Below are positions 7,791 to 16,024 of a DNA stretch of 64,000 nucleotides, piece after piece (the stretch's first letter is position 1; every line of letters begins with the position of its first letter). The stretch comes from a bacterium (GTDB lineage Bacteria > Electryoneota > RPQS01), in NCBI GenBank assembly GCA_013360195.1, contig JABWCQ010000006.1:62001-126000 (forward strand). Reading direction: 5' to 3'. The notes beneath the pieces were generated by a model, which was not told where the DNA came from, ran no database searches, and saw only the letters and a list, made by a program, of their open reading frames with translations. The translations under genes and the position numbers were made by a program.

Positions 7791-8918
7791 ATGATTGGCT
7801 GGTTGCGCAATGCCTGGCGAAGTCCAAGACTGCCGTTTCGGCGGCACTTTGTCATCTTTGCTCTGATCTCCGTCTTTGCGCTGGCGCAGCTTGTCTGGTG
7901 GTCTATCTATCAAGCCAAGGAAGGCCGCAGATTGATTGAAACTCAAGAGGGGTACTGGCAGCAGCAAATCGTCGTGGCCTATGTTCAGCGTGCGTCCGGT
8001 GACGGCAATTTCGAAGAGTGGCTTGGCAAAACCTTTCCCGATCTTGAGGTTGTGTCAGACAACATGATTCAGGTGAAAAGCACGGCGCGTGTGAAACTGA
8101 ACAAATTTGTAAACTCTCGCACACGCATGTTCATTTCTGAAGGCGCGTTCTTTGGCCTTCTTGTGCTGATAGGGGTGCTCTACATGCTCAGAACATTGCG
8201 TGAGGAAATTGACATGGAACACCGGCAATCCGTCTTTCTCGCTGCGATGTCTCATGAACTCAAGACACCCTTGACTTCACTAAAGATGTATGTTGACACG
8301 TTGAGTGCGCGCGAGTTTCCTCCGGCAAAACGACTGGAGATTCTTGAGACGATGTCCGTCGATCTAGACCGGTTGAACGATTTGATCGACCGTTTGCTTC
8401 AGGCGCAAAAAGTTCTCTCGCCCGGCTCTTCGCTCCCCCTGGAAAAGACTGATATTAGCGAGGAGACGGTTCGAGCGGTCACAGAGCTCTCGCACAGAAT
8501 CGAATTTGCGGGTAAACATCGCTTGAATGTGGACACGGAGTTCGGGTTAATGGCGATGGCTGATCCGCGCCGCTGGCAGCTTGTCGTAAAAAATCTGGTT
8601 GACAACGCAGTGAAGTATTCTCCAGATGGCGGTATGATAGATGTTTTCCTTTCACATCGGGACGGCAAAATCGAGTTAACCGTGAGTGACGAAGGACAGG
8701 GGTTTAATCCGGACGAAGCATCGCGTATTTTTGACCGCTTCTACCGTATCGGGAACGAAGATACTCGCAAGGCTCAAGGTGTCGGACTGGGTTTGTACCT
8801 GGTGCGGGAAATCGTCACCTCCATGAGCGGAACTGTTGCGGCACGAAGTCCTGGTCCGGGGAAGGGATCACAATTCATCGTCACAATTCCCGCTCTTAAG
8901 GATACTCAAAGTGCCTGA
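7791..8918 (+). CDS. Sensor histidine kinase
   Basis: Membrane sensor kinase of 375 residues. One transmembrane helix lies near residues 20-42 (VIFALISVFALAQLVWW) and a second near 118-136 (FFGLLVLIGVLYML), enclosing a short periplasmic sensor segment of about 75 residues. The phosphoacceptor is His155 in MSHELKTPL. The ATPase domain shows the N box (NLVDNAVKYSPDGG), G1 (VSDEGQGF), F box (IFDRFYRI) and G2 (GVGLGLYLV). It begins 21 bp after hemL and overlaps its partner regulator by 8 bp. The signal sensed is unknown; its position between heme and cytochrome genes suggests a redox or heme-related cue, which is inference. Confidence 0.93.
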   Translation: MIGWLRNAWRSPRLPFRRHFVIFALISVFALAQLVWWSIYQAKEGRRLIETQEGYWQQQIVVAYVQRASGDGNFEEWLGKTFPDLEVVSDNMIQVKSTARVKLNKFVNSRTRMFISEGAFFGLLVLIGVLYMLRTLREEIDMEHRQSVFLAAMSHELKTPLTSLKMYVDTLSAREFPPAKRLEILETMSVDLDRLNDLIDRLLQAQKVLSPGSSLPLEKTDISEETVRAVTELSHRIEFAGKHRLNVDTEFGLMAMADPRRWQLVVKNLVDNAVKYSPDGGMIDVFLSHRDGKIELTVSDEGQGFNPDEASRIFDRFYRIGNEDTRKAQGVGLGLYLVREIVTSMSGTVAARSPGPGKGSQFIVTIPALKDTQSA

Positions 8919-9618
8919 ACGGATTCTGATCGTGGAGGATGAGCAGCATATTGCTGCCGGACTGAAGCTCAATCTTGAAGCAGAGGGGTTTGAAACGCAT
9001 CATGCGGCGGATGGATGGACAGCTATTCGCGAAATCGAAAGCGGAAACCATGATCTGGTACTGCTTGATGTCATGCTTCCGGGTGCCAGCGGATTTGACG
9101 TATGTGAAACGGTTCGCGCAAAGGGAATTCACATCCCAATACTTTTCCTGACCGCACGCGACAGCGATGACGCACGTGTTAGAGGTCTGGAACTTGGTGG
9201 AGATGACTACATCACCAAACCGTTCAGCATCCGCGAACTCATTGTCCGCATCCGCGCGATGTTTCGTCGCAACGAATGGTATCGAAAGCCTCCCGAGCAA
9301 GGGAATCTCCTTGCCTTCGGAAATTGTAAAGTTGATCTCTCCGCTTATTCGGCAGATACACCCCAGGGAAGGATCAGCCTCACCCAGAAGGAATGCATGA
9401 TTCTCAAACTGCTTGCAGAACGCGAAGGAAATGTGGTCTCGCGTGACGAGATTATTGAAAAGGTTTGGGGTTATGACCGCTATCCTTCGACAAGAACAAT
9501 CGACAATTTGATTGTACGCCTAAGAAAGTTTTTCGAGCCTGACCCGCGAAGCCCGCGTCATCTGCATACGGTGTATGCGGCGGGTTACAAATTCACGCAG
9601 GCGGCCACGCCGGAATAG
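8911..9618 (+). CDS. Response regulator, OmpR/PhoB family
   Basis: DNA-binding regulator partner of the preceding kinase. The receiver domain (residues 1-120) has the acidic pair in VEDEQ, phospho-acceptor Asp53 in LLDVMLPG and the lysine in DDYITKPFS. The C-terminal winged helix (about 135-235) ends in TRTIDNLIVRLRKFFE and HTVYAAGYKF. I chose the GTG at 8911 because VPERILIVEDE starts the domain exactly there; an upstream ATG at 8836 would add 25 residues deep inside the kinase gene. The 8 bp overlap with the kinase supports one transcript. Targets are unknown; the adjacent multiheme cytochrome and ccsA genes are natural candidates. Confidence 0.93.
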   Translation: MPERILIVEDEQHIAAGLKLNLEAEGFETHHAADGWTAIREIESGNHDLVLLDVMLPGASGFDVCETVRAKGIHIPILFLTARDSDDARVRGLELGGDDYITKPFSIRELIVRIRAMFRRNEWYRKPPEQGNLLAFGNCKVDLSAYSADTPQGRISLTQKECMILKLLAEREGNVVSRDEIIEKVWGYDRYPSTRTIDNLIVRLRKFFEPDPRSPRHLHTVYAAGYKFTQAATPE

Positions 9619-9620
9619 AC

Positions 9621-10763
9621 ATGACAACGATTAAACTGACAGGTTTGGCAATTTGGTCGAGCATATGCATTGGAGTTTTTCCGAATGACCTCTTGGCATT
9701 CCATGACGGTGGCGTTGCGAGCTGCTCAATGTGCCACATCATGCATCGGGGTTCTGAAGGGTTCGAAGTTCCCCCGACAATCGAGAACAACTTCTTGTTG
9801 CTCAGCGAGACCCCAACGGACTTGTGTCTCAGTTGCCACTCAAGCGAAAACGGTGCGGTCTGGTCGGTGAATCCACTGACTCCGGCGCCGGAGCGGGGCG
9901 GAGGCAATTTCATTTTCGGTACGGCTCCCAATTTAAATGATGGTCCGGATGGCGCAATGCATCCGCTTGCCGGCAGCCACGGGATTCATAACTGCATTGC
10001 GCTCTCGAATGGTGTGTTTCAAGACCCCCTGAATAACGTTGCTCCCGGTGGAACATATCCGTCGGCCTCACTCGGTTGCACGAGCTGCCACGATCCTCAT
10101 GGCAATGAAAACTTTAGAATGCTCTGGGGTGCCGGACACGTTCAAGCAGGCGATTTCTATTTCATGTATCCTGCTCCTCAAGCTGATGGTTTGCCGTTGA
10201 ACGGTGCGGCTGAGTCGCGAGCCAATCACACCGCCTATCGAAGCGGTTGGACAAATTGGTGCGCGAATTGTCACGGATTCTTTCACGAGAATCAGGCATT
10301 TGGATTCGCTCACCCAGTCCGTGGCACGCTCGGCGCGGATGTCATGACTTCTTATGACCGTTACAATGGAACTGGTGATCCTACTGGAGGAACGCCTCTG
10401 AATGCGTACATTCCACAAGTGCCGTTTCAAAGCCTTTCGATAACTACTACTTCCACGAACGGTCCTGACAAGCGAAGTGAAATTGCCTGCATCACGTGCC
10501 ACCGTGCGCACGGGTCAAGCGCCGTCGACTTGGGTAGGTGGGACTTCAGGGTGTTAAACTTGAGGATGGACGGTGTGGTCTCTGGTTCTTTTCCACTTCC
10601 GTCGCCTTATTCTTCTGGTACGATTGAGCGGCAGCTGTGTGTCAAGTGTCACGAGCCGGAGGCTCGCGACCATGGATTCGACCAAGCCTGCGTGGCCTGT
10701 CACAGAGGTGAACTTGAAACTTCGACTCCGTTGCCGACCGGAGTTGCCCGTCCGGCGAAATAG
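9621..10763 (+). CDS. Secreted seven-heme cytochrome c (doubled CXXCH type)
   Basis: Starts 2 bp after the response regulator. An N-terminal hydrophobic stretch (LTGLAIWSSICIGVF) can act as a signal peptide. Seven CXXCH heme-attachment motifs are visible in order: CSMCH (residues 35-39), CLSCH, CTSCH, CANCH, CITCH, CVKCH and CVACH. Several are followed by His or Pro-His as in the doubled CXXCH family, for example CTSCHDPHG and CITCHRAHG. The protein (380 residues) probably sits in the periplasm or outside the outer membrane and carries electrons. No enzymatic signature was recognised. The CcsA and ResB genes downstream provide the machinery that attaches these hemes. Confidence 0.9.
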   Translation: MTTIKLTGLAIWSSICIGVFPNDLLAFHDGGVASCSMCHIMHRGSEGFEVPPTIENNFLLLSETPTDLCLSCHSSENGAVWSVNPLTPAPERGGGNFIFGTAPNLNDGPDGAMHPLAGSHGIHNCIALSNGVFQDPLNNVAPGGTYPSASLGCTSCHDPHGNENFRMLWGAGHVQAGDFYFMYPAPQADGLPLNGAAESRANHTAYRSGWTNWCANCHGFFHENQAFGFAHPVRGTLGADVMTSYDRYNGTGDPTGGTPLNAYIPQVPFQSLSITTTSTNGPDKRSEIACITCHRAHGSSAVDLGRWDFRVLNLRMDGVVSGSFPLPSPYSSGTIERQLCVKCHEPEARDHGFDQACVACHRGELETSTPLPTGVARPAK

Positions 10764-10888
10764 CGGGAAAGCCACTCCTCTTCACTTAATCGGATTAATT
10801 TAGTCTCATTTGCTGAAATCGCTGAATATGGCGATATCGACACATTTGCTAATCTTGAGCCAATGTGACAAATAAGCATTAATTGTGC

Positions 10889-10919
10889 TTGACTATGCAC
10901 AAACGTTTTGCGAAATTAT
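10889..10919 (+). promoter_or_regulatory. Weak sigma-70-like promoter candidate
   Basis: TTGACT at 10889-10894 resembles a -35 box. AATTAT at 10914-10919 is a possible -10 box at a long spacing of 19 bases. It would start transcription just before the first hairpin at 10941. The match is weak and could be chance in AT-rich DNA. Confidence 0.25.
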
Positions 10920-10940
10920 TACTGTAGAGTTTATTGTATC

Positions 10941-11060
10941 GCGCCTCAGGCGCACCCTTTATGTCGGCTTCGACAACATATTTATGGAGGGAAACCTCCT
11001 TACCCCAAATGCATGACTTTAGACTGTCCGCATGCGGCATTGCCGTGTGCGGACTTTTTT
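10941..11060 (+). ncRNA. Candidate structured cis-regulatory leader of ccsA-resB
   Basis: Four hairpins follow one another. They are GCGCC-TCA-GGCGC (10941-10953), GTCG-GCTT-CGAC (10963-10974), GGAGG-GAAA-CCTCC with a GNRA-type loop (10986-10999), and a long stem at 11026-11054 with six T's. The ccsA ATG follows 38 bases after the T-run. GCATG at 11011-11015 could pair with CATGC at 11031-11035, an alternative to the terminator stem. The layout resembles a transcription-attenuating leader. I could not match it to a known riboswitch (no GEMM, cobalamin or TPP core seen), so it may also be just a terminator with incidental hairpins. Confidence 0.4.
11026..11060 (+). terminator. Intrinsic terminator or attenuator upstream of ccsA
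   Basis: A near-perfect stem of about 13 pairs begins GTCCGCA and closes TGCGGAC (11026-11054), followed directly by TTTTTT (11055-11060). It lies 262 bp after the cytochrome stop and 37 bp before the ccsA start, so it may end an upstream transcript or act as an attenuator of ccsA-resB. Confidence 0.75.
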
Positions 11061-11097
11061 CTTTGTCTCGTTCAACAAAACCCGAGCAGGTGTGAGT

Positions 11098-12339
11098 ATG
11101 ACACCCTCACTTGATGTACAACTTTTCTGGTTCGCTTTTTGGGCGTATCTAGTAGGCTGGATCTCCTTCACGATTTGGCTTGCCGCCCGCAAACCGATTT
11201 GGACAAAAATCGGTTCCATTAGCTTTGCTGCAGGTTTCATCCCGCAAACCATCGCCTTCTTCCTCCGCTGGGACTATCAGGGACACTTCCCGATGTCCAA
11301 TATGTATGAGTATATGGCGGTAATGAGTTGGATGGCGGTTGTGAGTTTCGCATTCCTGACATGGCGGTATCGCAACTGGATAATCAGCGCGCTGATTTCT
11401 CCTGTCGTCATTATGCTGATGGTCGCAGCATCGCTTCTCCCGAAAGATCCAAGTCAACAGTTGATGCCTGCGCTGCGCAGCTCATGGCTGATTATCCATG
11501 TCACACTTGCGTCAGTCGGGGCCGGTGCCTTTGCCGTCGCGGCTGCTGTTTCTTTTGTGTACTTGCTGGCGGTCAGAAGCGAGGAAGAGGCACAGAAGAC
11601 CTTCAAGCCCTCAATGAAGATCCCTCTGCAAGTGCTCATCTTTATTCCTGCCATTATCGCATTGCTTGGAAGTGTCAGCGATGCATTCGCCAGCCAGTCC
11701 GCCATGCAGCTATTCGGTGCGCCTATGCGCGGCGGGAACGTGCTTGTCTTACTCGGAATCTATCTAGTCCCGGCGGGGTTCGTCTGGAACTATCTGTTCA
11801 AAAGCACACCTTCCGTGGAAACTCGCTATTGGACTGCCATTGCATTTTCCGGCCTGTTCCTCGGCGCACTTGCCGGTGGTATTCTACTAAGCGGGGGAAA
11901 AATTTCGTTAACCTCCGACAGCCCACTGAGAATTTTCGAATTCTTCGGTGTCACACTCATCTTTGGTACACTCGGCGCGTTTCTGCTTCATACTGCTCTC
12001 GGTTTCGGCCGCGTTGCCGGAAAATTGCACCTCGATGGCAGGTTACTCGATGAGGTTAACTATCGCTCCGTTGCGTTGGGTTATCCGCTCTATACATTGG
12101 GTGCGCTCTTCGCCGGCGCGATTTGGGCGGAAAGCGCGTGGGGAAGCTTCTGGAGCTGGGACCCAAAGGAAGTCGGCGCCCTTATCATTTGGCTTTTCTA
12201 CAGCGCCTTCCTGCATGCCCGCTATCAACGCGGTTGGTCGGGACCGCGCACCGCTGTACTGTCGCTCATCGGGTTTGCGATGATGATGTTGTCACTCTTC
12301 GGCAACTACTTCTTCGGCGGTTTGCACGCTTACGCATAA
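11098..12339 (+). CDS. ccsA: Cytochrome c biogenesis protein CcsA/ResC (heme handling)
   Basis: Polytopic membrane protein of System II cytochrome c maturation that presents heme for attachment to CXXCH motifs outside the cytoplasm. The ATG at 11098 follows AGGTG about 6 bases upstream and gives 413 residues. The diagnostic tryptophan-rich WWD motif is WGSFWSWDPKEVGALIIW near residue 350. Conserved His residues are present in YHARYQ-like and VTLASVGAG regions, and about eight hydrophobic segments are visible. It precedes resB by 8 bp. The seven-heme cytochrome encoded upstream is an obvious client. Confidence 0.92.
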   Translation: MTPSLDVQLFWFAFWAYLVGWISFTIWLAARKPIWTKIGSISFAAGFIPQTIAFFLRWDYQGHFPMSNMYEYMAVMSWMAVVSFAFLTWRYRNWIISALISPVVIMLMVAASLLPKDPSQQLMPALRSSWLIIHVTLASVGAGAFAVAAAVSFVYLLAVRSEEEAQKTFKPSMKIPLQVLIFIPAIIALLGSVSDAFASQSAMQLFGAPMRGGNVLVLLGIYLVPAGFVWNYLFKSTPSVETRYWTAIAFSGLFLGALAGGILLSGGKISLTSDSPLRIFEFFGVTLIFGTLGAFLLHTALGFGRVAGKLHLDGRLLDEVNYRSVALGYPLYTLGALFAGAIWAESAWGSFWSWDPKEVGALIIWLFYSAFLHARYQRGWSGPRTAVLSLIGFAMMMLSLFGNYFFGGLHAYA

Positions 12340-12347
12340 GTTCACGA

Positions 12348-13940
12348 ATGAATTCCAACAATAATACAAGCACTCACGTCAGCCGCAAACCTAAATGGTG
12401 GGCAATGCTCTCCACTATGAAGTTTGCCATCTGGATTCTAATCATCGTCGGCGTACTTTCGCTTGCTTCGCTCTTCAGCGGTGAATTAGTTGACCCTCGT
12501 TGGCTGGAGCAAGAGCCGTCAGGTGCCGCTGCAGCCTTTGGCCAGCTCGTCTATCGCATGCTCGAAATGCACGACCCGTTCCGGTCGTGGTGGTATCGAG
12601 GACTCATCGGAATCCTGTCGCTTTCGCTTTTTGCCTGCATCCTTGAGCGCACGCCGATAGTTTGGCGTCAATGGAGCAAAAAGCCCGAGCTTGATCATCG
12701 CTCGATTAACGATCGTACTGCGCCAATCTTCCTGACGACTACCGAAACTCCGAACTCCCTCGTGGAGAGAATGAGAAGTAAACTCTCGCAGCGGTATTCA
12801 AGTGAGTCGTATTGGGTGGGAGAGTCCGGAAGACTCGCGCTGTGGGGTCCGCTATTGACTCACCTCGGTCTGCTCTTGCTTGCTGTCGGCGGCTTGGTGG
12901 GCTCCTTCGGTGACAAGGATTCCCGCGCCGGCGGATATCCCGGTGACACTATTGAAGTCGACGATATGCCCTTCGAGGTTCGCATTGACAGCTTCCGCGT
13001 CGAATTCTATCCCCTTCAACCGCGCCAATGGGTGCTCGTCGACGGCGAGTGGTTTGGCCGCTTGGTCAGGGAGGACAGCCCCGGAACTTGGTTAATCGAG
13101 CGCTTTAACGAGAACAACGAGGTCGAACTTGTATCCATGGAGGAAGCGTGGATTGAAAATGATTGGGATATTCAGCGTGCATCGGGGAATATCAAACAAT
13201 ACATAAGCAGTGTCACCGTTTTCGAAAATGGAGAGAAGGTGGATGAACGGCAGATTTCTGTCAACACTCCATTGCGCCGAAGCGGTTACCGGCTCTACCA
13301 AAGCTCCTATGACCCGACTGCTCCCCGTGTAAGTGCTTCCTACGATCAACTGACTGTCGCGGTTTTTGATTCCTCCGGTGCAGAGTTGCAAAGACTGCAG
13401 CTTAAGCAAAACCAAATGGTCGAAGTTCCCGGTGATACGGTGAAACTGACAGCAGGAAGACTTCTGCCGGACTTCAAACTCGATTCCCGCCGAAGCGCAT
13501 ATTCGGCCAGCGCAAAGTTCAATAACCCGGCACTCGAATTGATTGCTGAAGGTCCAAGTGGCTTCCGTAAGCCTATGTGGTCGTTTCTTCAGATGAAAGG
13601 GCATCAGGCGTCATTCGGAAAATTCCGCTTTGAGGCTGTGGATGTCACCGGCACGAACGCACGAATGGATATTGCAACAATCTTTGATGTCCGCAAATCT
13701 GCCGGAACGGAGTTCCTGTGGCTTGGCTTCCTTGTCTCTTCAATCGGACTTGTTCTCTGTTTCTACATGACACACAGGATCGTATACGTCGAGTATCCGA
13801 CGGCTGAACAACCGCTGACTCGCGCTTATGCTTTCAGCAAGAAAATGGTTCGTGCGTTTGAACGGGATATTGCCGCAGTTGCCGAGCAGCCCGGCCATGA
13901 AGTCAAAATGTCCGTTCAGCCGGATATCGTCTTCTATTAG
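12348..13940 (+). CDS. resB: ResB-like cytochrome c biogenesis protein
   Basis: Partner of CcsA in System II cytochrome c maturation. The chosen ATG at 12348 is 8 bp after ccsA and gives 530 residues; the frame is open further upstream but that part lies inside ccsA. Transmembrane helices occur near residues 25-45 (MKFAIWILIIVGVLSLASLF), 80-100 (LIGILSLSLFACIL) and 165-185 (LLTHLGLLLLAVGGLVG). A large extracytoplasmic domain follows with NTPLRRSGYRLYQSSYDP, typical of ResB, and a last helix lies near 460-480 (FLWLGFLVSSIGLVLCFY). It ends 72 bp before a convergent gene, with a bidirectional terminator between. Confidence 0.9.
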   Translation: MNSNNNTSTHVSRKPKWWAMLSTMKFAIWILIIVGVLSLASLFSGELVDPRWLEQEPSGAAAAFGQLVYRMLEMHDPFRSWWYRGLIGILSLSLFACILERTPIVWRQWSKKPELDHRSINDRTAPIFLTTTETPNSLVERMRSKLSQRYSSESYWVGESGRLALWGPLLTHLGLLLLAVGGLVGSFGDKDSRAGGYPGDTIEVDDMPFEVRIDSFRVEFYPLQPRQWVLVDGEWFGRLVREDSPGTWLIERFNENNEVELVSMEEAWIENDWDIQRASGNIKQYISSVTVFENGEKVDERQISVNTPLRRSGYRLYQSSYDPTAPRVSASYDQLTVAVFDSSGAELQRLQLKQNQMVEVPGDTVKLTAGRLLPDFKLDSRRSAYSASAKFNNPALELIAEGPSGFRKPMWSFLQMKGHQASFGKFRFEAVDVTGTNARMDIATIFDVRKSAGTEFLWLGFLVSSIGLVLCFYMTHRIVYVEYPTAEQPLTRAYAFSKKMVRAFERDIAAVAEQPGHEVKMSVQPDIVFY

Positions 13941-15992: not shown

Positions 15993-16024
15993 AAGCAGGC
16001 CGGTCCTTTCGGACCGGCCTGCTT
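15993..16024 (-). terminator. Strong intrinsic terminator after the 886-residue secreted protein gene
   Basis: Perfect 14-pair stem AAGCAGGCCGGTCC with loop TTTC. On the minus strand it is followed by a T-rich run (TTTTATTT). The plus-strand side also has a T-run, so it may work both ways. The remaining sequence from 15771 to 15992 shows no gene. Confidence 0.85.

Follow-up and report, generated by a model that had tools for sequence, protein, structure and literature searches.

Is a cytochrome c assembly operon controlled by an RNA leader in this bacterium? The question arises from the gap upstream of ccsA in the 64-kb stretch of DNA analysed here (64,000 nucleotides, hereafter the window). 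This gap of 334 nt separates a multihaem cytochrome gene (9621-10763) from ccsA (11098-12339, + strand), which encodes a cytochrome c assembly protein (Pfam: PF01578) and is followed on the same strand by resB (12366-13940, with an approximate start; Pfam: PF05140). Upstream, Pfam also supports a histidine kinase and a response regulator of the OmpR type, preceded by a class-III aminotransferase. The genome to which the window belongs (G000) has a single ccsA match at E ≤ 1e-20. A first-pass annotation described positions 10889-11097 as a hairpin-rich leader ending in a terminator, with the layout of a riboswitch or attenuator.

Three Perfect Hairpins within a Closing Stem

The leader contains three perfect 5-bp hairpins on the + strand, all evident in the letters and in the predicted fold: H1 (10941-10953, GCGCC-TCA-GGCGC), H2 (10962-10975, TGTCG-GCTT-CGACA) and H3 (10986-10999, GGAGG-GAAA-CCTCC, with a GNRA-type loop). 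Their pair probabilities are 0.80-1.0. The first-pass annotation had described these hairpins correctly, the GNRA-type loop included, but had missed the stem that closes around them. This stem, P1, pairs 10925-10939 (pair probabilities 0.71-0.93) with 11009-11021, both on the + strand, and its 3' strand contains a GCATG element. In the predicted fold P1 encloses H1 to H3, and the unit is thus a four-way junction. Downstream lies an intrinsic terminator (11026-11060, + strand), also as annotated: a 13-pair stem at 11026-11054 with a loop of 3, and a run of six T residues at 11055-11060. The run ends 37 nt (11061-11097) before the ATG of ccsA at 11098. The terminator pairs all have probabilities of at least 0.985, and a terminator scan of 9500-12500 places this site as the longest of four, where 3.5 of any strength are expected.

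How unusual is this arrangement? At least three perfect hairpins (stem of at least 5, loop of 3-5, at least two G-C pairs) within 98 nt were found in only 1 of 5000 dinucleotide shuffles. Within the window, 14 of the 6391 98-mers taken at a step of 10 have three such hairpins, and these merge into six places, the leader included. The fold of 10924-11062 has a z-score of -6.56 (200 shuffles), and its minimum free energy (MFE) structure equals the centroid. The leader without its terminator gives -2.82 (10924-11025) and -2.49 (10924-11018), again with 200 shuffles. For 10924-11021 the z-score is -4.03, and 9 of the 1305 98-mers of the + strand, one of them overlapping, score as low or lower (24 shuffles each). 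The strongest fold in the + strand scan is elsewhere, at 15993-16024 (z-score -7.4): it pairs perfectly over 14 positions around a TTTC loop and, with the GATTTTT that follows, resembles a terminator.

Stepwise folding predicts that H1, H2, H3, P1 and the terminator form in that order, with transient alternatives at 10992-10996 and again at 11040-11044, within the terminator arm. Two further features were observed. The stretch ACCUCCUUACCCC (10994-11006), half of it within H3, resembles an anti-Shine-Dalgarno sequence; we take its first nine letters to be those of the 3' tail of 16S rRNA. A 5-bp hairpin, GGUGU-GAGUAUG-ACACC (11089-11105), carries the start codon of ccsA in its loop, and by eye the same-genus relative G001 could form an equivalent with one U-G pair.

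A Conserved Promoter ahead of the Leader

The first part of the annotated leader appears to be promoter rather than transcript. A -35 hexamer, TTGACT (10889-10894, + strand), lies within a segment (10886-10918) that is 88% identical before ccsA in G001. After a spacer of 17 follows the -10 hexamer GAAATT (10912-10917, + strand), which agrees with TATAAT at 3 of 6 positions and aligns with GAAATT in G001 and with GATATT in related promoters. Further upstream, the box AATGTGACAAATAA (10862-10875, + strand) is identical in G001 in its letters and in its spacing to the -35 hexamer, and may be an activator site. Promoter conservation and spacing suggest that the RNA starts near 10924; the region annotated as leader would then be structured and terminated as described, but its first 35 positions, 10889-10923, would be promoter. 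A generic promoter scan does not list this promoter, which reaches 8 of 12, because GAAATT matches at only three of six positions. Nothing indicates a start after 11060: the conserved promoter lies upstream, and the same scan finds no promoter-like site between the terminator and ccsA.

The promoter type recurs before other cytochrome genes. Among six genomes searched, TGTGACAAA-N16-TTGACT has three matches with no mismatch: two precede ccsA, in G000 and G001, and one precedes a gene of G006 with NapC/NirT and multihaem cytochrome domains. Genes of G001 and G000 whose proteins by eye look like that of the G006 cytochrome gene have a similar promoter, with 1 and 2 mismatches, respectively, to TGTGACA-N15-TGCTTGACT. 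The cytochrome gene promoters have GATATT at the -10 position. A promoter of the form TGTGACA-N15-TGCTTGACT-N17-GATATT/GAAATT is thus seen before ccsA (G000, G001) and before the NapC-type multihaem cytochrome gene (G006, G001, G000); the loci are 10862-10917 of the window, L193, L194, L215 and L228. We limit the claim of a shared promoter to these individually named matches, as allowing up to 2 mismatches reveals no overall enrichment of the patterns over the reversed control (26 versus 22 matches in six genomes, and 19 versus 14 in eleven). The -35 box TGCTTGACTATRC, at up to 1 mismatch, has 9 matches in the genome versus 2 for the control, most of them within frames; two, at L152 and L157, look promoter-like by eye but have no such leader. 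It is tempting to regard the histidine kinase and response regulator at 7791-9618 as a candidate controller of this promoter type.

Distribution of the Leader among Relatives

Is the leader conserved? In G001, ccsA is clearly the same gene (963 of 1243 aligned columns are identical to the window) and the promoter is present, but the cassette is absent: the promoter runs straight into ccsA. From the -35 hexamer to the ATG there are 203 nt in the window versus 69 nt in G001. The 134 extra nucleotides are consistent with the predicted transcript, with exact breakpoints left unfixed by the alignment. The 420 nt inspected before ccsA of G006 contain no promoter of the ccsA type, and a gain of the cassette in the window's genome is therefore indistinguishable from a loss in G001.

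We searched more widely with a covariance model (R1, 10925-11021) built from this one sequence, which may miss distant relatives; the absence at the G001 locus is therefore firmer than the absences elsewhere. At E ≤ 10 the window copy is its sole match in 11 genomes of the family. The model likewise finds only that copy at 83 ccsA loci and nothing at 27 further ones (110 loci in all, the window among them, from overlapping collections with many genomes in both). A ccsA match exists in 44 of 61 genomes; 14 without a locus were left out, and the phylum members among these were covered by a model search of 39 phylum genomes at E ≤ 0.5. That search yields two weak extra matches, in G038 (22.2 bits) and G026 (19.8 bits), which we take as chance since their alignments show several broken pairs or gaps. 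The conservation and covariation upstream of ccsA orthologues, whose absence the first-pass annotation had itself named as refuting its reading, were not found, as far as these 110 loci and 11 family genomes can be searched, and with a single copy there is no covariation from which selection on the structure could be read.

Across 291 genomes, at E ≤ 0.01 and with stricter filters, the model gives one further match, in G288 (L161, 1501-1596; 29.8 bits, E = 3.6e-4). Like the leader, it has three perfect hairpins within a closing stem. Its third hairpin, in contrast to the single-copy cassette of the window, is a multi-copy palindromic repeat, and on this ground we judge the likeness to be due to chance, although its z-score of -5.61 still points to a real fold. 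Partial copies of this repeat, with the core AACGGGGTAAACCCCGTTAG, are numerous in G288, G151 and G291 (14, 21 and 14 matches, respectively, at E ≤ 0.1), which belong to one genus outside the window's phylum.

The leader itself does not behave as a REP-like interspersed repeat, of which many copies would be expected: its own genome holds no second copy, only short matches of up to 25 nt. H1 has 11 matches in the genome versus 13 for the control (1 mismatch), and H2 has 9 within the window versus 7.7 expected. H3-like words are moderately overrepresented in the genome (27 versus 15 for the control at up to 2 mismatches, one exact). DNA similarity searches give no match in plasmids and one 37-nt match in phages (E = 0.1), and an exact 26-nt core pattern is absent from viral contigs. 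Terminator-like hairpins as such occur within 300 nt upstream of ccsA at 4 of 30 loci (the window itself, L047, L048 and L055; 231 nt only were covered at L063). By eye, those of L047 and L048, approximately 90 nt before ccsA and behind a response-regulator-like frame, resemble the terminator of that gene.

What the Leader May Do

On balance, we favour the view that a lineage-specific, single-copy cassette gives rise to a short terminated RNA, with ccsA-resB dependent on read-through, and that it acts as a fixed attenuator, as a small RNA, or as both. Observed in support are the sequence elements, the promoter shared with G001, and the absence of the cassette there, together with the predicted fold. 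A cassette of approximately 134-137 nt separates ccsA from the conserved cytochrome-type promoter, at a place where G001 has none. RNA polymerase would initiate near 10924, the nascent transcript would fold into a four-way junction closed by P1 around the three hairpins, and termination at 11055-11060 would release a stable short RNA. Expression of ccsA-resB would then come from polymerases that read through or from transcripts that arrive from upstream. The terminator might be a fixed attenuator or one modulated by a protein, and the freed RNA might serve as a small regulatory RNA. Several points speak against this: the promoter goes unlisted in the generic scan, with a -10 hexamer that agrees at 3 of 6 positions; H3-like words are moderately overrepresented in the genome; a single copy offers no covariation; and a strong unconditional terminator would hinder the good expression expected of the sole ccsA match. 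If cytochromes are matured, that sole match leads us to expect some route past the terminator; candidates are read-through, the transcript of the cytochrome gene, an anti-terminating factor, and translation of a 44-codon frame (10961-11095).

Could the cassette simply be a near-neutral inserted or decaying piece that lowers ccsA expression somewhat and has no selected regulatory role? Its presence in one genome only among those searched would fit, as would the occurrence of three such hairpins at six places in the window. Random decay, on the other hand, is expected to break stems, and here the hairpins are perfect, the MFE structure is the centroid, and the fold is far more stable than its shuffles; the unit also spans the whole space between the putative start and the terminator. 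We consider this reading unlikely.

A further possibility is an attenuator that responds to a ligand or protein, as a riboswitch of a new class or a leader bound by a protein, in which a signal chooses between P1 with the terminator and an anti-terminator formed by the 3' strand of P1 and the 5' arm of the terminator, and so controls ccsA-resB. The order of promoter, aptamer-like junction, terminator and gene is that of such a device. The GCATG element can indeed be paired with the terminator 5' arm, as the first-pass annotation proposed, and the arm bases have upstream pairing probabilities of up to 0.11. Before the 3' arm of the terminator is made, the forced anti-terminator fold lies just 1.0 kcal/mol (transcript end 11036) or 3.5 kcal/mol (11041) above the best fold, which has P1. 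In the full transcript, however, it is worse by 16.8 kcal/mol, and shuffling that strand gives pairing as good in 193 of 2000 cases, so that the anti-terminator, although it can be formed on paper, is weak and close to the chance level. Moreover, P1 and the terminator have no bases in common and can form together, the cassette is not conserved even within the genus, and Rfam has no match. The energies and shuffle counts favour default termination with read-through over a two-state switch, and we regard the responsive attenuator as improbable.

Other readings seem more doubtful still. The terminator might belong to the preceding multihaem cytochrome gene (end at 10763), being the first strong one listed 3' of it, but 263 nt and the conserved promoter separate it from the stop codon, and G001, with identical gene order, lacks it; we give this little credence. 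We would attach equally little to an orphan regulatory RNA belonging to a new class and acquired recently behind the cytochrome-regulon promoter of ccsA, which would use termination to limit cytochrome c maturation and release a closed four-way-junction RNA that acts elsewhere, e.g., by masking Shine-Dalgarno sites with ACCUCCUUACCCC. Least probable of all is ribosome-mediated attenuation or coupling, in which translation of the 44-codon frame (ATG start, inside a TTG frame at 10934-11095) would melt the terminator: the frame is open, crosses the terminator and has its stop 2 nt ahead of the ATG of ccsA, which it adjoins, but by eye a clear Shine-Dalgarno sequence is missing before 10961, open frames of 44 codons are not rare by chance, and G001 has no such segment.

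Comparison with Known Classes

The leader resembles terminated 5'-leader RNAs and 5'-UTR small RNAs, in which a promoter, a structured leader and an intrinsic terminator precede a coding region; at the sequence level, the promoter and terminator before ccsA place it with terminated leaders and attenuators. Premature termination that yields such RNAs is reported to have been mapped in E. coli (PMC7815308). The window leader differs in that its 3' end is a predicted one and that a conserved copy was not found.

GEMM-I/Ib riboswitches of Geobacter commonly have a GNRA loop and a terminator. The first-pass annotation had drawn an analogy with GEMM riboswitches, while recognising no known class. 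The latter statement agrees with our searches and the former, taken as membership, does not: Rfam, with GEMM-I and GEMM-II included, gives no match in the window at the gathering score, nor in 10760-11110 at E ≤ 5 with permissive filters. GEMM-Ib is found upstream of many Geobacter cytochrome genes (PMC6456294), and the likeness lies in a structured leader before a cytochrome-related gene. In contrast to GEMM-I/Ib, the window leader has three short hairpins within a closing stem, lacks an anti-terminator that rivals the terminator in strength, and is not conserved. More generally, the relatives searched reveal no conserved aptamer, as far as a model from one sequence can tell, and the terminator and its alternative are too unequal in strength to be a mutually exclusive pair. 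The layout of promoter, structured leader, terminator and gene therefore stands, but the leader cannot be called a riboswitch, a reading that is not supported. A limited literature set, represented by titles and abstract openings, mentions neither a riboswitch with ccsA-resB nor such a leader in cytochrome c maturation.

Implications

The leader appears to be a compact, terminated unit, well formed in its sequence and predicted fold; of all the genomes searched, only this one was found to have it. Riboswitch control of cytochrome c maturation would be a notable finding, but it is not what the evidence favours. If the short RNA is made, its origin could be traced as a case in which a leader with a terminator stands between an inherited promoter and an operon for cytochrome assembly, and the same-genus relative G001 provides a cassette-free control. 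How this group controls respiration may be better approached through the promoter that ccsA shares with the NapC-type cytochrome gene.
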